Shown here in pieces: positions 1 to 15,088 of a stretch of 64,000 nucleotides of DNA; the first letter of the stretch is position 1, and each line of letters opens with the position of its first letter. Origin of the DNA: Longimicrobiales bacterium (GTDB lineage Bacteria > Gemmatimonadota > Gemmatimonadetes > Longimicrobiales > Gaopeijiaceae); contig JAQWPM010000022.1 in the NCBI GenBank assembly GCA_029245345.1, positions 62,001 through 126,000 of the forward strand. The letters are read 5' to 3'. Under the pieces are notes generated by a model. That model had not been told where the DNA came from, did no database searches, and saw nothing but the letters and a program-made list of their open reading frames with translations. The position numbers were made by a program, and so were the translations under genes.

Positions 1-826
1 TGGTCCACGACAGTAGGTCCGGCACGGTGGAGCACAGCGCACCTGCTGCTCCCGGCGTGTTCATAGAGATGCTCCCGTCGTTGAGAAGCCCGTCCCCTCC
101 CTGCTCATAGCCCTCCGCCCTACCGGGGATGATCTGGGCCTCATGGCAATAGGACGAACGCGACAAACCCAGCGGGCCGAAGAGGTGGGCGTCGAGGTAG
201 TCGTCGTAGGACTCCCCACTCACCTCCTCGATGATCATACCGAGCAGATAGTACCCTGAGTTGTTGTACCGGTACTCCTCACCCGGGGCGAAGTCGAAGG
301 GCTCGTCCTTGAATAGGGCGAGCATCTCGGTATGGGAGAGGTCCAAGAGGCCAGCCTTCCGCCAGAAGACATCTCCGAGGCTCGTGTAGCTCTTGATTCC
401 GGACGTATGACCGAGCAGGTGGCGAATGCTCACCTCATATCCTTGGGTGGGATAGTCCGGCAAGTGCAGCGTCAGCGGATCGTCGATAGCAATCTGACCC
501 GCCTCGACCAACTGCATGACCGCCGCAGCGGTGAACTGCTTCGTGAGAGAACCGATCCGGTACACAGTCCCCGCGGTCATCGGCACGCTATTCTCGATGT
601 CTGCGACGCCGTAGCCCTTCACCATGAGCAGGTCACCGCCGCGCTTCACCCCGATGGTCAAGCCAGCGACCGGCCCGTCGCGGAGCGTCGCTTCAGCGAG
701 GGAGTCGATCCGTTCAACCAGTTCCCCACCCCACACGGGGGCCTGAGACTGCGCACAAGCTGGCAGAGTGGAGAACAGACAGCCCACGATGACAAGACGA
801 AGCATAGATCTCGAAGTCCTACTCAT
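1..826 (-). CDS. Serine hydrolase, class C beta-lactamase fold (3' end cut by window edge)
   Basis: About 275 residues are visible; the C-terminus lies outside the window. The N-terminus is hydrophobic and ends LPACAQ, so it is exported, perhaps as a lipoprotein. The beta-lactamase/D-alanyl-D-alanine carboxypeptidase motifs are present: SLTK at residues 93-96 (nucleophile Ser93, Lys96) and YNN at 187-189, with HTSGI at 140-144 between them. These proteins are usually peptidases or esterases of the PF00144 family, and true beta-lactam hydrolysis cannot be inferred. The start at 826 is chosen because AGGAG lies just upstream. A second in-frame ATG at 805 begins the hydrophobic stretch directly. 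The start overlaps the end of a small upstream ORF by 8 nt. Confidence 0.9.
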   Translation of the reverse strand, partial: MSRTSRSMLRLVIVGCLFSTLPACAQSQAPVWGGELVERIDSLAEATLRDGPVAGLTIGVKRGGDLLMVKGYGVADIENSVPMTAGTVYRIGSLTKQFTAAAVMQLVEAGQIAIDDPLTLHLPDYPTQGYEVSIRHLLGHTSGIKSYTSLGDVFWRKAGLLDLSHTEMLALFKDEPFDFAPGEEYRYNNSGYYLLGMIIEEVSGESYDDYLDAHLFGPLGLSRSSYCHEAQIIPGRAEGYEQGGDGLLNDGSISMNTPGAAGALCSTVPDLLSWT

Positions 827-1022
827 CGGTCTCTCCTAATTGACATGGATGGAAGCACCTGATCGGAACCGACCCTCGGCCGTCATCCCATTTTAGCCAC
901 AGCTCGGTAGGCTTCCGGAATTCGTATCCGGCGAGGATGGGGTAGGGATCAGCGCTCAAACCGGCCATCGTGACGCGCGCTCCGCGTGGAAATCGGGCCG
1001 CCTTCCTCTCAAAATCTGACAT
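819..1022 (-). CDS. Small hypothetical protein (doubtful)
   Basis: A 67-codon ORF starts at an ATG at 1022 (a TTG at 1043 is in frame). Its stop overlaps the start of the serine hydrolase, an arrangement compatible with translational coupling. The product is soluble, with a Trp/Asp-containing middle (ELWLKWDDGRG). I recognise no family. It could be a chance ORF; the overlap with a well-placed downstream start is the only support. Confidence 0.3.
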   Translation of the reverse strand: MSDFERKAARFPRGARVTMAGLSADPYPILAGYEFRKPTELWLKWDDGRGSVPIRCFHPCQLGETDE

Positions 1023-1353
1023 GCACCGGTCCCGTACAGACAAAGTCTGAGTGATCGATTCGCTATCGCCCTACCCGAGGAGGTAGCAGATGCGAGCTTA
1101 GGTCCAACCTGCAGGCTCGTCCAGGCGAGCAGGTCCCGTGCGCCACGCGAGCCCGCTTCCTAAAGTGCGAAACCCGCGCAGTACGCAGGTCCCCGATCGC
1201 ACCGACTCCGTACATGTGGTGGTGCCACCAGAGAAGGCCCGAAAGCGCCTTTTCACGACGATCGCTCGGCCCGAGGCTCAGCCCTCCCTCCTTTAGGTGG
1301 GCGGCTCCCTAAGTAGGCTGGGCATGACATCCATAATGTCTGCGTTAAGCGCC
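1023..1353. other. Non-coding stretch before attC-like repeat
   Basis: About 330 bp hold no convincing ORF on either strand. At 1344-1350 there is a GTTAAGC heptamer that fits the integron core-site consensus GTTRRRY. It faces the GTCTAAC of the attC-like element ten bases further on. Nothing else is recognised. Confidence 0.4.
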
Positions 1354-1473
1354 GTCTAACGACTTTGAAAATCTGCTGCGCGACTAGAATGCTTCCCACG
1401 GGTCGCGAGGTGCAATCCGAGTTATTCGGGAACCTCTACGTCATCGCGCGACGGCAGCAATTTCTTGTTATGA
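1354..1473 (-). repeat. attC-like imperfect inverted repeat, copy 1
   Basis: Seen directly: GTCTAAC (1354-1360), then CTGCTGCGCGA (1373-1383), about 60 bp of spacer, TCGCGCGACGGCAGCA (1444-1459) and GTTATGA (1467-1473). The arms are complementary. Read on the minus strand the element ends in GTTAGAC, a perfect match to the integron core site GTTRRRY. It begins about 27 bp after the stop of the minus-strand gene that precedes it, as an attC does behind a cassette gene. The simple-site half GTTATGA is imperfect. Related elements lie at about 2467 and 3620. The attC identity is an inference from layout and motif. Confidence 0.5.
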
Positions 1474-1499
1474 AGCTCACAACCCAGAAATTGTAGCAG

Positions 1500-2438
1500 C
1501 TAGTTAATGACGATCGGCTCCAGATGGACAGGTGAAATCACTCGTGAATCTGGCGCCAGGTCTGCCGCAGCCTGAACGAACGGCACGATGTTGCGCTCGT
1601 AGTCCGCCTGCTGAGAGTAACCGTACGGGAGGCGGAAGTTGTCCCAGTGGGTCGGGATCACGATCGACGGGTACCCAGTAGACCGAAGAAGGCGCTCATC
1701 GTAATTGTATAGACCCAACCGAGACCCGTTGATACCCGCCAAGAGGATATCCGGATTCAGGCCCTGGTACTCGCGCTCAATGAAGTTCATAGACCCCATA
1801 GTGAGAACATCATGGCGAGCGAATCGAGCCAAGAAGCTCAGTGAGCCCCCTTCGATGAACTGGTCGATTCGGAGCGGCACTTGCAGCGTGCTCGCGTCCG
1901 TGAGGCGCCGAGAGTCATAGTAGCGCTTCTCGTTAAGGGCCGAGTGTATCGTTGGGACGATTCTGACAGAGAATCCATCGAACTGATAGTCTTCGCCCCC
2001 CTGCACGGCATAGAGTTGATCCTCGGGAACGCCGTAGGCCCGTAGGATCGTGATCACGGTCTCCGTGCCGATGACCTTCGCGCCGGTCTTCTTCGCGATA
2101 TAGGGGACGTCGCCGAGATGATCGTAGTGACCATGGTGGATGAGGATGAAGTCAGCCACGGTGATGATCTCGTCGATCAACGTTGTATCGGACCAGGCAG
2201 GATCCGTCCGCGCGAAATTCGGTCTCGGATCCTCCGGATGAACGCCATCCCCGTACTTGAGGCGGGAGATGTAAGGATCGATGAGGACCGTCACAGTCCC
2301 GTCGTTGACCTCCCATCCGGCCGCCCCCAGGTACGTGAAGCGAATTGGATCTGCTCCCCCCTCCTGTGCATCTACGCTAGGTCCAGCCATCGCGATCGCA
2401 ACAGCCAGAAAGAGTGTTGATTTCAAGGCACTGCTCAT
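1500..2438 (-). CDS. Secreted metallo-beta-lactamase-fold hydrolase
   Basis: A 312-residue product with a signal peptide (MSSALKSTLFLAVAIAMAG, cleavage near VDA-Q). The zinc motif HHGHYDHLGD at 101-110 supplies HxHxDH, and a C-terminal THWDNF supplies a further His. The fold resembles the UlaG-like/PF12706-PF13483 branch rather than antibiotic-hydrolysing lactamases; the substrate is unknown. The ATG at 2438 is chosen because it begins the signal peptide. A longer frame to 2498 would run into the attC-like repeat. The gene lies between two attC-like elements, with 28 bp from the upstream element to the start and 27 bp from the stop to the downstream one, as in a gene cassette. Confidence 0.85.
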   Translation of the reverse strand: MSSALKSTLFLAVAIAMAGPSVDAQEGGADPIRFTYLGAAGWEVNDGTVTVLIDPYISRLKYGDGVHPEDPRPNFARTDPAWSDTTLIDEIITVADFILIHHGHYDHLGDVPYIAKKTGAKVIGTETVITILRAYGVPEDQLYAVQGGEDYQFDGFSVRIVPTIHSALNEKRYYDSRRLTDASTLQVPLRIDQFIEGGSLSFLARFARHDVLTMGSMNFIEREYQGLNPDILLAGINGSRLGLYNYDERLLRSTGYPSIVIPTHWDNFRLPYGYSQQADYERNIVPFVQAAADLAPDSRVISPVHLEPIVIN

Positions 2439-2466
2439 CGGATTGCCAGCCGGGTCTAAAGGGAGC

Positions 2467-2568
2467 GTCCTAACGACTTTGGAATTCTGTTGCCGCACCT
2501 TAGTAGCTGCCGGCGAGCGCAGCGAATCACCCTCACGCCATCAGCGGACAGCAGCAATTCCTTGGTAC
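2467..2568 (-). repeat. attC-like imperfect inverted repeat, copy 2
   Basis: The left arm carries GTCCTAACGACTTTGGAATT and CTGTTGCCGC (2467-2495). The right arm carries GCGGACAGCAGCAATTCC (2544-2561) and GGTAC. The arms pair through GGAATT..TTGC..CCGC. The first 18 bases repeat copy 1 almost exactly (CTAACGACTTTG-AA), although the genes between the copies are unrelated in sequence. The minus-strand core reads GTTAGGA, one base off GTTRRRY. It sits between two metallo-beta-lactamase-fold genes. Confidence 0.45.
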
Positions 2569-2730
2569 ACGGCAAGCGACCATCGGGCCAAGAGAGCGTC
2601 AAGGCCCGCCGGACTTTCCATCGTCGTCCATCGGTCTCAGAATACGAATCTCAGGTTCGGACAAGGCGGTCGCACCGCGGATCCACCGTCCCACTCTCAG
2701 GTCGACCCATTCGTCTAGGTAGGAGATTCC

Positions 2731-3588
2731 ATGCGTCCAGGGCGAGTCCCGCTGCTGTTCACCGTAGTCGCCGCATTCATGTCCCCAGCGGACGTGACCG
2801 CGCGCGTTCAAGACGTGGACACAACGATTGAGTCAATCCGTGTGATCGGGAACATCTACTACGTCGGTGGGCAGTTCGGCTCCTACCTCATCACCACACC
2901 TGAGGGTCACATACTCCACGACACGGGCAGCTCCGAGATGCACGAGGTCATCCTCGCGAACATCGAGCGGCTCGGATTCGACGTCGCTGATGTACGAATC
3001 ATGATCTCGAGTCACGCACACTGGGACCATGTGGGGGGACACGCCGCCATGAAGCGAGTGACCGGTGCGCAGGTGGTGGCGCTTGGAGGAGATGCCCAGG
3101 CCCTTGAGTCGGGGGAGGACAACTCGGCTCTGGGAGCCCGGGGCTGGGAGCCCGTCGCAGTGGACCGCGTCATCCGTGACGGTGAGACAGTCACGCTTGG
3201 CGGAGTGACGCTGCGGGGCACCTTGACGGGTGGGCACACTCAGGGGGCGACCTTGTGGATGACGACGGTGGAAGAGAACGGCTCGGAAATCACAGTGGCA
3301 TTCCGGGGCGGCGAGATCCCGAACGCCGGCGTTCAACTCATCGACAATCCTAGGCACCCGTCAGTCGTCGAGGATACGAAACGGACGCTGGAGAGGCTGA
3401 ACGCGCTTGAGCCCCCCGACCTCTTCCTCCACAATCACGCGAGTCCAGCTCCGATGGAGCTCGACCCATCTCTGCCCATCCATCCGAGATGTGTCACGTG
3501 CTTCGACGCGGACGGGTGGACCGCTTATGTGGCTAGGGTCACCGAGGCCTTCGAGAGGATGCTCCGAGAGGGGGGCAATCGGCTCTGA
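2731..3588 (+). CDS. Subclass B3-like metallo-beta-lactamase
   Basis: A 285-residue exported protein (hydrophobic leader to about residue 25). Zinc motif HAHWDHVGG gives His95, His97, Asp99 and His100; His169 lies in GGHTQGAT; and a third His site lies in LFLHNHASP (234-236). The spacing and the blocks around NIERLGF, GAQVVA, DRVIRDGETVTLGG follow the B3 lactamase family layout. Activity on carbapenems is possible but unproven, because many B3-like proteins are lactonases or housekeeping hydrolases. A GGAG lies 8 bp before the ATG. The gene is flanked by attC-like repeat 2 and half-repeat 3, but its orientation is opposite to the gene of the neighbouring putative cassette. Confidence 0.85.
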   Translation: MRPGRVPLLFTVVAAFMSPADVTARVQDVDTTIESIRVIGNIYYVGGQFGSYLITTPEGHILHDTGSSEMHEVILANIERLGFDVADVRIMISSHAHWDHVGGHAAMKRVTGAQVVALGGDAQALESGEDNSALGARGWEPVAVDRVIRDGETVTLGGVTLRGTLTGGHTQGATLWMTTVEENGSEITVAFRGGEIPNAGVQLIDNPRHPSVVEDTKRTLERLNALEPPDLFLHNHASPAPMELDPSLPIHPRCVTCFDADGWTAYVARVTEAFERMLREGGNRL

Positions 3589-3619
3589 CAGTTCACGTCC
3601 CGAGAGTGCGTCGCTTGCC

Positions 3620-3650
3620 GTCTAACGACTCGCGGTTCTGCTGCACCGCC
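3620..3650 (-). repeat. attC-like half site, copy 3
   Basis: GTCTAACGACTCGCGGTTCT followed by GCTGCACC repeats the left arm of copies 1 and 2 (GTCTAACGACT then CTGCTGC). On the minus strand it ends in a perfect GTTAGAC core. The matching right arm is not found, because the stop of the gamma-glutamyltransferase gene lies only 6 bp away. It is therefore either a truncated site or a chance resemblance. Confidence 0.35.
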
Positions 3651-3655
3651 CTCAC

Positions 3656-5542
3656 CTACCAACCCACTGCGTAGGCCACTCGCCTCGGGTCTGCTCCTGC
3701 CCAGAAAGTCCCGGTAATGGGGTCCCGAAAGATCCCCTGATTGCTGCCGAGGCTGTATGGAGCGGCAAGCTCTACGGTGTGTCCGATGTCCCTGAGCGCC
3801 GCGACGATGTCAGAGTCCACACGATTCTCAAGATTTAAGACGAGTTCTGCATCGAGCAGATAGAAGTTCGGCGCCGCTGTGAGGGCGAACCGGGGCGCCG
3901 CCACCGCCTCCTGGATCGACATTCCGAACTCCAGAACGTTGAGTATGGCCTGGAACTGTGTCTGGCCGATGGTCTCGCCGCCGGGAGATCCGATCGCAAG
4001 GACGAACTCGCCGTCTTTCATGACAATGACGGGGGAGTTGTTCAGCAACGGAATCTGTCCACCGCGGACGTAGTTGACATCATCCGGATAGGGGGAGGTC
4101 GAGCCGATCCGGGTCCCGTTGTTGAACAGCAGTCCCGTAGTCCCGACGACCACGCCAGTGCCGAACCCTCCACCGTGGGTCGGCGTTGCGGCTATCACAT
4201 TTCCGAATTGGTCTGCCACGGAAAAGCTGGTCGTACCGCCTACCTCGGCACCCTCATCGAACTGAGGTCCACGAGGGGCTGCCATCAAAGCCGATGCTTC
4301 GGTTGTCGAGTGAGGTGGCTGGCCCGCTTCCGGATAGTGCATCGCTGCCAGCCGGCTGATCAGTTCACGGCGCTCGGTCGCGTACTCTTTCGACAGCATG
4401 CCTGCCACGGGGATATCCGTGAACTTGGGGTCGCCGACATAGTGGTAGATGTCGGACTTCGCGACCTTGATAGCCTCAGCAAGGATGTGCAGGGTCTCCG
4501 CGCTGTTGTGACCCATTGCCCTGAGGTCGAAGCCCTCCACGAGGTTCAGCTGCATGGCGACTTCGAAGCCACCTCGGGACGTCGAGGGACTTGAGTAGAT
4601 GTCGTAACCCCGGAACGTCGTGTGAACCGGATCGGCCCAAATCGGCTCATACGCGGCGAAATCGTCGAGCGTGAAGTCACCACCGTTTTCGCTGTAGAAT
4701 TGGGCCATCTCTTGGGCAATGTCACCCTTGTAAAAGAGATCGAAGGCGGCCTGCAGAGCTTCGGATCTGCTTTTGCCCTCCGCGAGCGCCTGTCGCTCAG
4801 CTTGCACCACCCGCCTGAAGGTGTTCGCCAGGTCGGTCATGCGGAACATCTCCCCAGGCTCCGGCACCTTTCCGTCAGGCAAGAAAACCCCCGCACTCGT
4901 CGGGAACTGTTCGAAGAACGATTGGGATCGGGCGATGGAGCCGGCGAAGGACGCTTCGATCGGGTGCCCGTTCTCCGCGTAGTCGATGGCCGGCTCGAGG
5001 ACCTCGGCGAGACTCATCGTGCCGAAGCGGTCCAGGACCGCGATCCAGCCTCCAAACAGCCCCGGGACCACACCCGCTCGAATCCCTCTATTCAGAGCCT
5101 CCCGCGTCATCGTCTCCGGGACGATCGCCAGAGCGGCGGCCCCCGTCGCGCCCAACGAATAGACCTGATCGGTCGCCTTGTCATAGATCGTGATGAAGCC
5201 GTTCCCACCGGTACCCGAGCTCTGTGGCCTCACGACGTGCAGGGTCGCCAAGGTAGCCACCGTGGCATCGGCCGCGTTGCCTCCCTGAAGCAGGACCCTC
5301 AGTCCCGTTGTCGAGGCGAGCGGATGACCCGCGGTGACTGCTCCGTTCGTGAATTGAACGGCCGGTCGGTACACGGAAAGAGACTGAGCCGCAGGACCCG
5401 CTGCATCCGGATGTATCTGGTCCTGGCGATTCTGCGCTTGCCCCTCGACAGGTGCCTCCAGGTCGAGGACCCTGCCCAGTGCCAACAGAGCCAGGATCAG
5501 GACACCACCAATCACGCCCCAGAATCTATTCTCTCTACTCAT
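3656..5542 (-). CDS. ggt: Gamma-glutamyltransferase, membrane-anchored/exported
   Basis: 628 residues with an N-terminal hydrophobic segment (residues 8-23). The family makes a single chain that cleaves itself before a catalytic Thr. Here GGTTSFSVADQ places that Thr near residue 437, leaving a small subunit of about 192 residues, the usual size. Other family blocks are SRGGFEVAMQLNLVEGFD, NNSPVIVMKDGEFVLAIGSP and GSPGGETIGQ. It hydrolyses or transfers gamma-glutamyl groups from glutathione and peptides outside the cytoplasm. GAGGAG stands about 10 bp before the ATG at 5542. It could be the first unit of the putative cassette region, since an integrase remnant lies about 500 bp upstream. Confidence 0.95.
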   Translation of the reverse strand: MSRENRFWGVIGGVLILALLALGRVLDLEAPVEGQAQNRQDQIHPDAAGPAAQSLSVYRPAVQFTNGAVTAGHPLASTTGLRVLLQGGNAADATVATLATLHVVRPQSSGTGGNGFITIYDKATDQVYSLGATGAAALAIVPETMTREALNRGIRAGVVPGLFGGWIAVLDRFGTMSLAEVLEPAIDYAENGHPIEASFAGSIARSQSFFEQFPTSAGVFLPDGKVPEPGEMFRMTDLANTFRRVVQAERQALAEGKSRSEALQAAFDLFYKGDIAQEMAQFYSENGGDFTLDDFAAYEPIWADPVHTTFRGYDIYSSPSTSRGGFEVAMQLNLVEGFDLRAMGHNSAETLHILAEAIKVAKSDIYHYVGDPKFTDIPVAGMLSKEYATERRELISRLAAMHYPEAGQPPHSTTEASALMAAPRGPQFDEGAEVGGTTSFSVADQFGNVIAATPTHGGGFGTGVVVGTTGLLFNNGTRIGSTSPYPDDVNYVRGGQIPLLNNSPVIVMKDGEFVLAIGSPGGETIGQTQFQAILNVLEFGMSIQEAVAAPRFALTAAPNFYLLDAELVLNLENRVDSDIVAALRDIGHTVELAAPYSLGSNQGIFRDPITGTFWAGADPRRVAYAVGW

Positions 5543-5769
5543 GGCACTTTGCTCCTCGTTCTATCCAGCGTGACGTTCGGTCTCCAGGCCTGGTGCCGGC
5601 GAGGCACGATACCGCCCACAAGGGGCGATGTTCGCACGGTCAGTGCGCTGCCTAGTGCGTCACGATTCTGGAGCACGGATCGTCGGCAAACAACCCCAGG
5701 ACGCACCGGACTGGCGACCGAGCCGACCCGCGTCAGGACGCTTGTGAGGACGGGCGCTGGAAAGCGAGA

Positions 5770-5990
5770 CGAATGTCTCGGCAAAGGTGGGCGGTTTCCT
5801 GTGTTTTGCAGACTGCTCATAGGCGTAGGCCAGCCGAAGCAGTGTCGGCGCTCAGCCCACGCAGCACCGGAGAAGCGGAGAAGCGGAGCCCTACCGGAAG
5901 CCCTGAGACAAAGCCCATGGGGACGGTGATGCTCGGGTACCCGGCCATCGCAGCCGCGCTATAGCCATCACCGCCGAGAGGGCTTGGTTC
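5770..5990 (-). pseudogene. Remnant of an amidase C-terminus
   Basis: In one frame the minus strand reads GGDGYSAAAMAGYPSITVPM then GFVSGLPVGLRF. In another frame, after about 50 bp, it reads LRLAYAYEQSAKHRKPP. These are consecutive C-terminal blocks of the amidase signature family; compare TGFPALTVPMGF and IRIAYAYEQRTQHRRPP in the intact amidase at 26465-28027. No catalytic Lys/Ser region is present, so only a frameshifted tail survives. It lies directly against the integrase remnant, and one open frame runs through both, which makes a misleading fused ORF of 162 codons. Confidence 0.7.
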
Positions 5991-6009
5991 TGTGAACTCG
6001 CCCTCAGCT

Positions 6010-6210
6010 TCAACTGATCCCGAGAGGCTCAGCGAACGCTTCGACCTCCAACGGCCCGGCCCCTCCGGGTCACGACCGCCGTGGCACGTCAGATACCGGC
6101 GAATCCAGGCCAGATAGGTCTTCTCGGTTCTCCGACTTAGCTGCCTCGTCCAGATGCCTCGGCTCATTTGTTCGAAGAGCCACTGCCGCGCTTGCGGCGC
6201 GAGTACAGCA
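6010..6210 (-). pseudogene. Remnant of integron-type tyrosine recombinase (N-terminal SAM-like domain)
   Basis: The minus strand encodes WLFEQMSRGIWTRQLSRRTE then KTYLAWIRRYLTCHGGRDPE. After a +1 shift near 6055 it reads PLEVEAFAEPLGIS and stops at 6010. This matches the N-terminal domain of integron integrases (typical blocks RTEQAYVxWIRRFI.FHGKRHP and EVEAFL). The catalytic domain with the Arg-His-Arg-Tyr residues is absent, so the gene is dead. The same N-terminal domain also occurs in some other tyrosine recombinases. The attC-like repeats 2.4-4.7 kb away favour the integron reading. Confidence 0.65.
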
Positions 6211-6337
6211 TGTCCGGACACCGGCCGGTTGAGCTCGAGCCCTAGATCGGCTTCGATTCGTCGTTTCATCCATCGACCATCCCCACAAACAGTGGGCGAC
6301 GGCATGGACGGATGGGCCGTCGTCTTTACTGTGCCGC

Positions 6338-6871
6338 TCAGTCCCCGCCCGAGTCCAACCCCAAATCCAGAATCTCCGCCTCGAGCGACGCTTCACCGTC
6401 CGAGTGCGATATCCTGACCCGCCCCACCGTCACCGGCAGGCTGAACCGCCTCGGCCCAGCGCTTCCGGGATTCATCCACAGCACACCGTCTCGCTCGCGA
6501 ATGAACGGCTCATGTGTGTGGCCGAAGACGACCATCTTCATGCCGGCAGCCTGGGGGTCCAGGTCGAGCTCTTCATTTATGTGAAGTACATAGGCGAGTA
6601 CGGGGTTGGTGTCCGTATTCGGCTGGTCCGCACCGGCAGGATCCACAGCCATGAGGTCGACGACCTGCGAGTGAGGGAGCGCAGCCCGAAGAGTTCCATA
6701 GTCAGTGTTGCCAAACACGGCATAGGTGGGCGCGATCTGGTTCAGGGCATCGAGGATGTCGGAGCCTCCCACATCTCCGGCGTGCAAAATGAGGTCACTG
6801 CCCTCAAGCGCCTGCAGCGCCTCCGGCCTGAGTTGGCCGTGCGTGTCTGAAATCACCCCAATCGTGCGCAT
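6338..6871 (-). CDS. YfcE/MJ0936-type metallophosphoesterase
   Basis: 177 residues, close to the family's usual 160-185. The full calcineurin-like metal site is visible: SDTHGQ (Asp9, His11), GDVGG (Asp33), GNTD (Asn55), GHTHEP (His118, His120) and NPGS. The protein hydrolyses phosphodiesters in vitro; the physiological substrate in this family is unknown. A 20-25 residue insert precedes VLAYVLHINEEL. The ATG at 6871 is preferred because GGAGAGG precedes it and it begins at the first strand; a frame to 6907 adds 12 non-conserved residues. It is divergent from the PhzF gene, with 83 bp between them. Confidence 0.93.
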   Translation of the reverse strand: MRTIGVISDTHGQLRPEALQALEGSDLILHAGDVGGSDILDALNQIAPTYAVFGNTDYGTLRAALPHSQVVDLMAVDPAGADQPNTDTNPVLAYVLHINEELDLDPQAAGMKMVVFGHTHEPFIRERDGVLWMNPGSAGPRRFSLPVTVGRVRISHSDGEASLEAEILDLGLDSGGD

Positions 6872-6954
6872 TCCCTCTCCATTGCCGCTGATGTCTCCTG
6901 CAGCCAAGGTAGGTCACGACCAGCCGGTACGCGTACCCTCTCCTCTGCACTTCC

Positions 6955-7911
6955 ATGAATCTCCCGTTCCAAACCCTCGACGTATTCACTGAAGAAATCT
7001 TCGGTGGAAACCCACTAGGCCTCTTCACCGACGCGACACATCTCCCGACGGAGCTGATGCAGCGCATCGCCTTAGAAATGCACCTGTCGGAGACAGTGTT
7101 CCTGGGCCCCCCAGAAACACCCGAGGGCACGGCCCGGGTTCGCATCTTCACGCCGGGACGGGAGGTGCCTTTTGCGGGGCACCCCACAGTCGGCTCGGCA
7201 ATTTTTCTGGCGGCGCTCGGTCATGCGGGGCCGCTGGAGGGGAACGGAGAGGTCACGGTCGTTCTCGAAGAGAACGTGGGACCGGTGCCCGTCGTGGTCC
7301 GCTACGAGAACGGGACCCCCGTCTTCGCTCGCTTCACGACGGCGCTGCTTCCGGAGCACCGACCGGCTCCTCATTCAGCGGCTGACCTCGCGGCTATGGT
7401 CGGCCTCTCGGCGGAAGACGTATGCGACGTGGAGCCGTCCTGCGGCCGCGGCGGTCCGAATGGGCTCTCCCCAGAAATGGTGTCGTGTGGGCTGCCCTAC
7501 TACTGCATCCCGGTGAAGAGCATCGACGCGGTTCGGAAGTCCGCGCTCGACATGACCCTGTGGAAGAGTATGGGCGTCGCGACAGGTTGGGCGGATCATG
7601 TCTACGTGCTGTGCATGTCCGGCGAAGGAGACGCAGTCGATGTGCACGTGCGCATGTACGCACCAGGCTCGGGGGTCCCAGAAGACCCGGCAACAGGCTC
7701 GGCGGCAGCAGCGCTTGGCGGCTACCTGTCAGCGGCAGACGGACGCGACGAAGGCTCGCTCTCCTGGACTGTCGAGCAGGGGATCGAAATGGGTCGACCC
7801 TCACTTTTGTATGTAGAAGCGGACCGAGCCGGCGGAGAGACTACGGCGGTACGCGTGGGCGGCAGCGCGGTCTTCGTGAGCGCAGGTACAATGGACGTGC
7901 CCAACCCGTGA
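6955..7911 (+). CDS. PhzF-family isomerase/epimerase
   Basis: 318 residues. PhzF-type diaminopimelate-epimerase fold: N-terminal FQTLDVFTEEIFGGNPLG, catalytic Glu46 in SETVFL, FAGHPTVG in the first half and EDPATGSAAAALGGYL in the second. Members isomerise trans-2,3-dihydro-3-hydroxyanthranilate in phenazine synthesis, but most stand-alone copies have no known substrate and no phenazine genes lie here. It opens a plus-strand run, and its stop overlaps the GTG start of the next gene by 4 nt. Confidence 0.92.
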   Translation: MNLPFQTLDVFTEEIFGGNPLGLFTDATHLPTELMQRIALEMHLSETVFLGPPETPEGTARVRIFTPGREVPFAGHPTVGSAIFLAALGHAGPLEGNGEVTVVLEENVGPVPVVVRYENGTPVFARFTTALLPEHRPAPHSAADLAAMVGLSAEDVCDVEPSCGRGGPNGLSPEMVSCGLPYYCIPVKSIDAVRKSALDMTLWKSMGVATGWADHVYVLCMSGEGDAVDVHVRMYAPGSGVPEDPATGSAAAALGGYLSAADGRDEGSLSWTVEQGIEMGRPSLLYVEADRAGGETTAVRVGGSAVFVSAGTMDVPNP

Positions 7912-8684
7912 GCCTGATATGGCGTGGTCTCGTATTGGCCGCAGCTTTTCTTGCGGCTGCGGGGCCAATCCGTGCCCAAACCATCTCGGGCTGGATCGTA
8001 GACGAGCAGCGTGGGAGCCCCATCGGGGGGGCGATCGTGACCCTGGTCGACAAAGACGGCGAGCAACACGCCCAGGCCCTGTCCGACATCGCGGGTCGCT
8101 TCACGATCTCTCCTCCCGAAGCCGGGGAGTATCAACTCCGGGCATCACGCATCGGGTACCACGCCGGCCAGTCGCCGCTCTTGGCACTCGAAGCTGACGG
8201 CACTGCCGAACTGGACATGCTCCTTCAGCCCGCCCCGATCGGCCTCGAAGGGCTCAACGTGGCGGTCAATCCATCGGTGGAAGCGGCGGCCCAGCTCGAG
8301 ATTGCCGGACTCCCCATCCGAGACCTTGGCAATCGTTGGATAGACCGCGCGGACATCGAAGCCGTCCAGGTGAAACGCGACGTGGGCAGTGTTCTGGAAT
8401 GGCAGGGACTCGGGGGCGTACGCGTGATCCGCCCTGAGGCCACGACCACGGGCAGCGACCCGATCGGGCTGTGCATCAGCATGAGCCGCGCCAACACGTT
8501 CGGCGGCGCGAAACGATGCGCGCTTGTGGTCGTCGACGGTCTGGCCTGGAACAACATCGAGGCTCTTCACATCGATCCGAATACAGTCGATGCCATGGCG
8601 CTGCTCCTCCCCACGGAAGGCGCCGTCATGTACGGGACGCGTGGCGAAGCGGGCGTACTGATGCTCTGGACCAAGCGCCGCTAG
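7908..8684 (+). CDS. Exported carboxypeptidase-regulatory-like domain protein
   Basis: 258 residues from a GTG start that overlaps the preceding TGA (GTGA). A signal peptide ends near IRAQ. Residues 27-110 form one carboxypeptidase-regulatory-like beta-sandwich (ISGWIVDEQRGSPIGGAIVT, with GRFTISPPEAGEYQLRASRI). The C-terminal part (RVIRPE, VVVDGLAWNN, GTRGEAGVLMLWTKRR) resembles the plug domain of a TonB-dependent receptor but lacks a barrel. No catalytic residues are seen. Probably a periplasmic or surface binding protein; the ligand is unknown. Confidence 0.85.
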   Translation: MSLIWRGLVLAAAFLAAAGPIRAQTISGWIVDEQRGSPIGGAIVTLVDKDGEQHAQALSDIAGRFTISPPEAGEYQLRASRIGYHAGQSPLLALEADGTAELDMLLQPAPIGLEGLNVAVNPSVEAAAQLEIAGLPIRDLGNRWIDRADIEAVQVKRDVGSVLEWQGLGGVRVIRPEATTTGSDPIGLCISMSRANTFGGAKRCALVVVDGLAWNNIEALHIDPNTVDAMALLLPTEGAVMYGTRGEAGVLMLWTKRR

Positions 8685-9727: not shown

Positions 9728-10881
9728 TGCGTCGGAACTTCGTGCTTGGCAGTGCCCTCGTGCTCGGCGCCTGTATCGCCCCAGCACTGGACGCCACGAA
9801 GCCCTACGTCCCAACGGCGACTTCCTGGGCAGTTCGAACGCCGGGAGAGGCGGGCATGAGCGCCGCGAAGCTCCAAGAGGCCGTCGACTACGCCCTCGCC
9901 CACGAGACCACGCAGATCCCAAACGACCCTGGCGTCTACCTGCGTGACCGCTTTGCAGGCCAGCCATACCAGGACATCGTCGGCCCGACCGCGGAACGGG
10001 GCGGCGTGAACGGTATCGTCCTGAAAGGCGGCTACATCGTCGCCGAGTTTGGCGACACGGACCGTGAGGACATGACCTTCTCCGTAACCAAGTCCTACCT
10101 GTCCACGGTGGCCGGTCTCGCCTTCGATGACGGCCTGATCCGCAATGTGGACGACAACATTGGTGACTACGTGACGGACGGGACCTACTCGGGCACGCAC
10201 AACGCCCAGATCACATGGCACCATCTGCTGCAGCAGACCAGCGAGTGGGAAGGCACGTTGTGGGACAAGCCGGACCAAGCGGACCGGCGCATGGGCATCG
10301 ACCGAGAGCTCCAGACGCCGGGCACGTTCTGGGAATACAACGACGTGCGCGTGAACCTGATGGCGTATTCACTGCTGCATCTCTTCGCGCGTCCGCTCCC
10401 CGAGGTGCTGGAGGAGCGCATCATGGATCGTATCGGCGCATCGGATGACTGGCGCTGGCACGGATACGAGACGTCTTGGACAGAGATCGACGGGCAGCGA
10501 ATGCAGTCCGTGAGCGGCGGCGGTCACTGGGGCGGCGGTTTCATCATCGACACTCGAGACCACGCGCGCTTCGGACTGCTGGCACTTCGTGGCGGCCGGT
10601 GGGGCGGCGAACAGCTGGTATCCAGCGAATGGTTCGACATGGCCACGCGGCCCGCGGACATCCAATCCAACTACGGGTACATGTGGTGGCTGAACACGGA
10701 CCAGGCCCAGCTCCCCTCCGCGCCGGGTTCTGTCTTCTACGCCAACGGTGCGGGCTCCACGAACATCATCTATATAGATCGTGACAACGATCTGGTGACG
10801 GTGACCCGCTGGGTTGACGGCGCGGAACATGTCGACGAATTCATTCGTCTGGTGCTTGAATCGATTGAGGGTGAGGGCTGA
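9727..10881 (+). CDS. Serine hydrolase lipoprotein, beta-lactamase fold
   Basis: 384 residues, lipobox ALVLGAC. The catalytic SxxK is FSVTKSY, and the second motif reads EYNDVRVN, where Tyr-Asn is conserved. A glycine-rich VSGGGHWGGGF stands before the last third, and VFYANGAGSTNIIYID occupies the KTG-equivalent region, so the classical KTG triad is not obvious. This is a PF00144 protein of the 6-aminohexanoate-dimer-hydrolase-like type rather than a resistance beta-lactamase. The ATG at 9727 is used; a GTG one codon upstream is also in frame. Confidence 0.88.
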   Translation: MRRNFVLGSALVLGACIAPALDATKPYVPTATSWAVRTPGEAGMSAAKLQEAVDYALAHETTQIPNDPGVYLRDRFAGQPYQDIVGPTAERGGVNGIVLKGGYIVAEFGDTDREDMTFSVTKSYLSTVAGLAFDDGLIRNVDDNIGDYVTDGTYSGTHNAQITWHHLLQQTSEWEGTLWDKPDQADRRMGIDRELQTPGTFWEYNDVRVNLMAYSLLHLFARPLPEVLEERIMDRIGASDDWRWHGYETSWTEIDGQRMQSVSGGGHWGGGFIIDTRDHARFGLLALRGGRWGGEQLVSSEWFDMATRPADIQSNYGYMWWLNTDQAQLPSAPGSVFYANGAGSTNIIYIDRDNDLVTVTRWVDGAEHVDEFIRLVLESIEGEG

Positions 10882-13433: not shown

Positions 13434-13877
13434 ATGAGCGGACGAGTCGAAGCAATCTGGACGAAGCGGTCCAAGGGCGGAGTGATGGACGCGGCACAAA
13501 GCGTCGATGCCCTGGAAGGCAAAGGCATCGAAGGCGACGCCAACTTCGGCGCGACGCGCCAGGTCTCGGTCATCGAGAAAGAAGTCTTTGATCGGATCAA
13601 AGACAGCCTACCCGACTCCGACCCGGCCATGCGCCGGGCGAACATCATGGTCAGCGGCATCCGCCTCGAGAACACACGCGGCCATGTGCTAACCGTGGGC
13701 AGAGTGAAGATCCGTCTACGCGGAGAAACGCGACCCTGCGAACTCATGGACGAGCAGTGCCCAGGACTCCGTGGTACGCTCGACCTGAAGTGGGCCGGTG
13801 GCGCGCACGGCGCGGTGATTCAGAGCGGTTCCATTTCGGTCGGGGACGCCGCGGAGCTAGAAGCGCCCACGGACTGA
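13434..13877 (+). CDS. MOSC-domain protein
   Basis: 147 residues. MOSC core with GDANFGATRQVSVIE and the cysteine motif RPCELMDEQCPGLRG. MOSC domains handle sulfur or molybdenum-cofactor-bound sulfur; stand-alone versions such as YiiM detoxify N-hydroxylated compounds. AAGGAG is 5 bp before the ATG at 13434. It is the last gene of the M24-cupin-MOSC run and is convergent with the kynureninase gene. Confidence 0.88.
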   Translation: MSGRVEAIWTKRSKGGVMDAAQSVDALEGKGIEGDANFGATRQVSVIEKEVFDRIKDSLPDSDPAMRRANIMVSGIRLENTRGHVLTVGRVKIRLRGETRPCELMDEQCPGLRGTLDLKWAGGAHGAVIQSGSISVGDAAELEAPTD

Positions 13878-13903
13878 CGGCCCGGAAACGCTACGGCCGG
13901 TCC

Positions 13904-15088
13904 CTAACGGGGCACGACCTCACGCAACGTCTCCATCGCCTGGACCACCTGCGCGTCGCTCAAGTAAGGGGCAGGACCAAAGCGCAGCCGGTCTCCCCTC
14001 GCGTCCGTGCTCACGCCGTGTTCGCGGAGCGCAACGCTCAGAGCCTCAGCATCCGGAGCCCGCACGGTCAGGAAACCTGCTCGGCTCTCGAGCGGCACCC
14101 CGGCATCGATCGACACCATCGCCGGGTCCAGATCTAGGCTTTCCAATGTCTCAACGAGCAGCCCCACCTGATGCTGGCTGACCGAGCGTAGGAGTTCTGT
14201 CGAGAGCCCCTGCTCCGCAAAGAAATCGAGCACTGCGGCTCCGCGATACTGAGACGTCGGGTCGAACGTGGACCCAGAAAAACGCATGAAGCCCTTTCCG
14301 TAGCGGACTTCGCCCTCGGTCTTCGCGTCCGCCAACTCGGCAAACTCACTGAACCAGCCAGTGATCACAGGGCGCATCTCACAGCCTTCGGGCACCCGCA
14401 TAAAGCAGTTCCCTTCACCGAGCTGCATGTACTTGTAGCCCCCGCCCAGAACAAACGCCTGCTCCATTCCGTCCAACGAAAACGGGACGACACCCAGGGA
14501 GTGGTAGGCATCCACCATCATCTCGGCACCGTGCTTCGTGCATGCAGCCGCTATCTGCTGGAGCTCAGGCACAATGAGACCGGTGCCGAACAACACGGAC
14601 GAGACGAGTACACACGAGGTGCGGTCGTCCACCTGGTCCGCCAGTCGTTCGGACAGCGTGTCCAGCGGATCCGCCGCCACCTTCACAACCTCAATGCCTT
14701 CCTCAGCCAAGCGATCGACCTGCCTGCGGATCGTGTGGAATTCGCCGTCTGTCGTGACAATACGCGGTCGCTCCCGGAGCGGCAGCGCAGACAGGAACCG
14801 CAGCAGCAATGCATGGGTGTTCGAGTCCAGGGTAATGTCTCCGGAGCAACCTCCTAACCGCTCACGGTACCCTTCACCAACACGCGCCCACTTCGCGGTC
14901 GCCGCGTCCCACTTCTGATCCACGAACTCAGCAGCATCCGACCACGCCTGCTTTTGGCCTTCGAATCCGGCGTCCGGCCACGCTTGGTGTGAATGCCCCG
15001 TGAGAAGCAGTCGCTCCGAGACCCGGAACGCCGAGTAATAGGGCGCCAGGGCATTGGGAGATGAATGGAGCTCGCCAAGAGAGATCAC
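13904..15088 (-). CDS. Kynureninase-like fold-type I PLP enzyme
   Basis: 394 residues from a GTG at 15088. PLP motifs are VDAYHSLG (Asp193) and GGGYKYMQLGEGN (Lys219, the Schiff-base lysine). The GTG overlaps the stop of tryptophan 2,3-dioxygenase by 4 nt, so both proteins are made from one message. That makes kynureninase (L-kynurenine to anthranilate and alanine) the most economical assignment. The N-terminus differs from classical kynureninases, which carry a YLDGNSLG-like block; here the corresponding stretch is LLLTGHSHQAWPD. A related class V aminotransferase or desulfurase-like role remains possible. Confidence 0.8.
   Translation of the reverse strand: MISLGELHSSPNALAPYYSAFRVSERLLLTGHSHQAWPDAGFEGQKQAWSDAAEFVDQKWDAATAKWARVGEGYRERLGGCSGDITLDSNTHALLLRFLSALPLRERPRIVTTDGEFHTIRRQVDRLAEEGIEVVKVAADPLDTLSERLADQVDDRTSCVLVSSVLFGTGLIVPELQQIAAACTKHGAEMMVDAYHSLGVVPFSLDGMEQAFVLGGGYKYMQLGEGNCFMRVPEGCEMRPVITGWFSEFAELADAKTEGEVRYGKGFMRFSGSTFDPTSQYRGAAVLDFFAEQGLSTELLRSVSQHQVGLLVETLESLDLDPAMVSIDAGVPLESRAGFLTVRAPDAEALSVALREHGVSTDARGDRLRFGPAPYLSDAQVVQAMETLREVVPR

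Follow-up and report, generated by a model that had tools for sequence, protein, structure and literature searches.

Arrays of attC sites without an integrase are known as CALINs (clusters of attC sites lacking integron-integrase; Cury et al., IntegronFinder 2.0, PMC9024848), and loss of intI is one of three origins that have been proposed for them (PMC8618304). In Treponema phagedenis, an attC array without intI lies at a chromosomal place that is syntenic with the integrons of related species (PMC3607928). The Gemmatimonadota are known integron hosts (PMC9024848, PMC8618304), and Gemmatirosa kalamazoonesis KBS708 carries a large integron with more than 10 attC sites on a 1.1-Mb replicon (PMC9024848).

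The DNA analysed here, a 64-kb stretch that we call the window, corresponds to positions 62001-126000 of contig C22 in a 3.79-Mb MAG of 30 contigs. It very probably holds the integrase-proximal end of a chromosomal integron array whose own integrase has been lost, and the best reading of the C22 locus is an ancestral chromosomal integron that was turned into a CALIN by local decay of intI. Like a CALIN, the locus has at least two attC sites in a directional arrangement and no functional intI nearby; it differs from the description in that a recognisable decayed intI fragment is kept and the genome holds a second integron with the same attC family. With the remnant of T. phagedenis it shares the attC array without a working intI and the syntenic position, whereas here the organism is a probable member of the Gemmatimonadota, intI fragments are found in both genomes compared, and the second integron is present in the same genome. 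The integron of G. kalamazoonesis KBS708 comes from the Gemmatimonadota and is set beside C22 by its published description. As the second array of the genome still has an integrase gene, it is well supported that the C22 locus is a further case of the known CALIN/integron type and not a new system.

The attC sites of the window

An attC site is an imperfect palindrome of the order R''/L''...L'/R' with RYYYAAC and GTTRRRY at its ends, and it is conserved in structure rather than in sequence. A sequence-only reading of the window had described three elements that share a motif at distances of about 1.1 kb. All three are present, copy 1 (GTCTAACGACTTTGAAAATCTGCTGC) at 1354, copy 2 (GTCCTAACGACTTTGGAATTCTGTTGC) at 2467 and copy 3 (GTCTAACGACTCGCGGTTCTGCTGC) at 3620, with spacings of 1114 and ~1150 bp; a small slip concerned the shared CTGCTGC, which in copy 2 reads CTGTTGC. 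The two perfect GTTRRRY cores that had been seen on the minus strand are the GTTAGAC of copies 1 and 3, the core of copy 2 being GTTAGGAC. The complementary arms that had been ascribed to two of the elements lie ~100 bp away in copies 1 and 2, which are full palindromic sites of ~120 and 104 bp, and are absent in copy 3.

Two covariance models were used to score these elements. The first attC model, R2, came from an alignment of 20 sites that included the window copies. For the window such a model is circular, and therefore a held-out model, R3, was built from 14 sites of C8 and C24 only, with no copy from C22.

1354-1474, minus strand: attC1, complete site (R2 107.3 bits; held-out R3 76.2 bits, E 1.3e-18)
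2468-2571, minus strand: attC2, complete site (R2 68 bits; held-out R3 59.3 bits, E 6.3e-14)
3620-3644, minus strand: attC3, right half only, recognised by sequence (L' GCAGCAGAACCGCGA and R' GTTAGAC; left half absent)

In attC1, read on the minus strand, R'' (TTCATAAC) is found at the left end, followed by the L''/L' stem and by R' GTTAGAC at 1360-1354. The R' of attC2, GTTAGGA, departs from the GTTRRRY consensus at its last base, and R'' is degenerate in both sites (GTACC in attC2). The family as a whole has the minus-strand layout RYCTAACAAG..ATTGCTGCTGTC ... GCAGCAGAATTCCAAAGTCGTTAGRY, which is that of an integron attC, with a single unpaired base separating the two stem blocks. Both attC1 and attC2 align with R3 from end to end. 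With filters off, the full-site score of attC3 comes to 6.6 bits only. We conclude that attC1 and attC2 are real integron recombination sites; the earlier attC assignment thus stands for two complete sites, and the third is a half site.

Along with that assignment, a covariance-model search for attC and a search for the repeat elsewhere in the genome had been proposed. The former yielded the E-values listed above, with nothing besides attC1 and attC2 at E<=10 for R3 in the 64-kb window, and the latter, with an attC model, ~28 sites in 3.79 Mb. The motif of the right half is far more frequent than chance: the pattern GCWGCAGANTNNNANRGTCGTTAG, with up to three mismatches, occurs 14 times in the 3.79 Mb and its reversed control twice. 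GTCGTTAGRC alone was discarded as a site motif for being too loose, since its matches on C12, on C21 and at C24:114059 had no support from the attC model. An Rfam search of positions 1-8000 of the window returned no match. Over the 20 aligned copies, the hairpin contains 34 double-change cells against 15.5 in shuffles, with a covariation score of 0.203 against 0.110, and all slid versions fall far below; the R and L stems therefore covary beyond both kinds of control, as a conserved attC structure should.

Gene cassettes and their closure

The features of the window that surround the sites are the following.

2-805, minus strand: beta-lactamase-family serine hydrolase gene, next cassette (PF00144, 191 bits)
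1360-2473, minus strand: gene cassette B, an MBL-fold metal-dependent hydrolase gene (1500-2438, minus strand) with attC1; closure 11/14
2474-3625: gene cassette A, a subclass-B3-like metallo-beta-lactamase gene (2731-3588, plus strand) with attC2; closure 12/14
3656-5542, minus strand: gamma-glutamyltransferase gene, ggt (PF01019, 413.9 bits; TIGR00066, 354.1 bits, cut-off 357.85)
5874-5975, minus strand: C-terminal fragment of an amidase gene, fused to the integrase remnant (NF006006, 38.3 bits, ORF residues 111-144)
6051-6275, minus strand: N-terminal remnant of an integron-type integrase, SAM-like domain (tblastn E 4e-8 to 6e-8)
6338-7911: phosphodiesterase gene (6338-6907, minus strand) and PhzF-like gene (6955-7911, plus strand), the conserved flank of the locus, both named from their translations and not by a profile search

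In an integron array, each cassette begins at the R' of the preceding site, and this start should be complementary to the R'' of the attC that the cassette itself carries. In 25 cassettes, R'' fits the previous R' at a mean of 10.3 of 14 positions, against 8.0 for its own adjacent R' and 7.65 for others, and none of 10,000 random draws reaches the observed mean. The cassette ends thus match as expected for a circle opened by site-specific recombination, both ends of a cassette going back to one circular attC. In the window this agreement amounts to the 12/14 and 11/14 listed for cassettes A and B, and the inverted repeat 2566-2580/3610-3624 is the signature of such a closure. It fails at the last two sites of C22 (6/14 and 3/14), which come after the two longest cassettes. 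As these are unusually long (5.4 and 5.2 kb) and the orientation of several genes is opposite to that of the array, some of the C22 span may be non-cassette DNA.

The gene at 2731-3588 likewise runs against the array direction. Its product is like a subclass B3 metallo-beta-lactamase: it matches NCBIfam NF033105 over nearly its full length with 223.8 bits, which is 16 below the curated cut-off of 240, has the zinc motif HxHxDH of that subclass as HAHWDH (residue 95), with further histidines in GGHT (167) and LHNHA (233), and aligns with PDB 6dr8 (E 2e-40). With its score below the cut-off it differs from the subclass B3 enzymes of that family and is a putative enzyme, known here from its sequence. 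The nearest B3-like relative found outside this genome is 70% identical and comes from a Gemmatimonadetes MAG (L114); it is on this match that the probable placement of the window's genome in the Gemmatimonadota rests. No attC was found around relatives of the gene, this one included, and the gene is absent from the same-genus genome G001. The product of 1500-2438 scores 64.6 bits with NF001911, below the cut-off of 144, and matches PF12706/PF13483. The serine hydrolase gene extends past the window start, and the next attC is found at C22:60718-60838. The stop end of ggt lies 12 bp from attC3, and this gene, which is directly 5' of the half site, is a possible cassette gene. For all the cassette genes, expression and enzyme function are presumed.

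The C22 array and its integrase remnant

The array on C22 comprises about seven full sites, all on the minus strand, and reaches at least 14 kb past the window start, to C22:47802; five of the sites were found by R3 on C22 outside the window. The further sites bound genes for an M42 peptidase, a Rid-family protein, S9 peptidases and others. A transposase-like fragment (L022:4379-4765), recognised by translation, lies ~1 kb past the last strong attC of C22, and a partial, weak attC-like match of 15-21 bits near the distal flank (L023:13601-13691, i.e. C22:35601-35691) is perhaps a decayed last site.

The expected place of an integrase, at the end of the minus-strand array, is taken by the remnant at 6275-6051, which has the expected orientation, with 2.4 kb between it and the nearest site. 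Its translation includes MKRRIEADLGLEL and WTRQLSRRTEKTYLAWIRRYLTCHGGRDP, and its tblastn matches are integron integrases of the same bacterial family. Profile scores amount to 19.4 bits for TIGR02249 and 25.3 bits for PF13495, the latter below the cut-off of 27. The catalytic domain is absent; just past the remnant a frame shift (SSQNQALSA) leads into the amidase fragment. As the N-terminal domain does not contain the integron-specific part of IntI, the identity of the remnant rests on its similarity to the IntIs of the family and on its position, and it presumably derives from an integrase that was once active. A TIGR02249 search of the genome gave no match on C22. In place of the intact intI and attI of a complete integron, the locus thus has the remnant only, and with seven full sites and no functional integrase nearby it is a CALIN, in accordance with the cluster of attC sites lacking an integrase that had been suspected from the sequence.

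The main integron and the question of trans activity

The remaining attC sites are distributed over C8 (18, and a half site at its start), C24 (one, at its end), C6 (two, a third being marginal) and C28 (one). The end of C24 and the start of C8 share an identical 141 bp as an exact overlap, and therefore both contigs belong to one integron, with intI, a candidate attI and 19 attC sites. The candidate attI junction at ~C24:234714 matches the first cassette end at 13 of 18 positions, a level that 48 of 500 shuffles also reach, and is thus no more than suggestive. No tRNA was found beside intI. The intI gene scores 259.7 and 54.1 bits with TIGR02249 in two frames (L025:13412-13939 and 13807-14526, on C24), which are split at a run of eight Ts; this break is either a real inactivation or a sequencing error. 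In or near both arrays, members of one recurrent protein family are found, at 25-34% identity (L022:5034-5759, L022:18923-19615, L020:14021-14491 and L023:9926-9420); their N-terminus is hydrophobic and they match no Pfam entry.

Among the aligned sites, those of C22 have main-array sites as their nearest relatives, alone or in a tie. The integrase of the second integron could rearrange the C22 array in trans, and we regard it as unlikely, yet worth considering, that cassettes of the C22 array are even now inserted and excised by the C24/C8 integrase. If this two-locus arrangement were true, inactivated arrays would be extra storage sites that draw on one attC pool. Less probable is an array that never had its own integrase and arose by off-target insertion in trans by the main IntI, or as a moved part of the main array. 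The attC family and subtypes common to both arrays, and the intI gene present in the genome, would suit such an origin, but the IntI-type remnant, which lies at the end where an integrase is expected and is oriented accordingly, argues against it, as does the remnant at the corresponding place of the same-genus genome described below.

The same locus in related genomes

In G001, a genome of the same genus, the PhzF-like gene is 90% identical (G001:C108:44375-45325) and lies beside a phosphodiesterase-like gene. This flank is followed by an N-terminal IntI fragment (L107:6065-6322), a half attC (L107:6424-6484), attC sites at L107:7604-7720 and 10472-10574, and then by genes that match C22 at ~29-34 kb. 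As both flanks are matched, including the far one with its DsbA-like gene, the locus can be sized at ~6 kb in G001 and ~34 kb on C22. A tblastx comparison of G001 with the C22 array gave no common cassette gene. Genes conserved in position in relatives without the repeats would have spoken against the attC assignment; G001 instead has attC sites and no detectable cassette in common. The IntI remnants of G001 and the window are not close to each other, so that different integrases may have served the locus, one possibly having replaced another. The evidence for a shared locus comes from this one genome pair. A search of other genera for an empty site found no attC in the stretches examined beside the PhzF-like gene of G006 and G020; in G018 the gene order differs, the PhzF-like gene being joined to another one.

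The matched flanks also bear on the view that the C22 array is intact and joined to a functional integron, its separation being an effect of MAG assembly. C24 and C8 are indeed one array that was split at an attC, but the C22 array sits inside a 197-kb contig with both of its flanks matched around the array of the same-genus genome, which leaves this view with very little probability. Weaker still is the proposal that the repeats are transposon ends or another dispersed hairpin repeat, for which the mimicry of attC by dispersed inverted repeats and the transposase-like fragment near the distal end (translation only) could be cited, but which the conserved R and L boxes, the one unpaired base between the L stem blocks, the covariation, the directional tandem arrays next to intI, the cassette closure and the missing Rfam match make hardly tenable.

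Mechanism and significance

For the preferred reading, that of a chromosomal integron whose intI decayed locally, an active IntI would bind the folded strand of each attC, presumably the bottom strand, for which 418 paired cells were counted against 410 for the top strand, a small and indirect difference. IntI would insert and excise circular cassettes at the core, between the G and the TTRRRY, and in the resulting array each cassette would start with TTRRRY and end with an attC with a complementary R''. The locus is now a store of genes, the B3-like metallo-beta-lactamase gene included.

Among the 38 genomes of the family, nine have integrases above the TIGR02249 cut-off. Five relatives (G007, G018, G020, G027 and G030) have intI and attC on a single contig, and in these intI points in the same direction as the attC sites. 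This is the reverse-type layout that is known from Treponema.

In this case intI loss, one of the proposed origins of CALINs, is readable from the sequence of a locus that two genomes of the same genus share. Within one family of probable Gemmatimonadota, integrons of the co-directional, reverse type are recurrent, and an environmental bacterium is seen to carry a B3-like metallo-beta-lactamase gene in a cassette.
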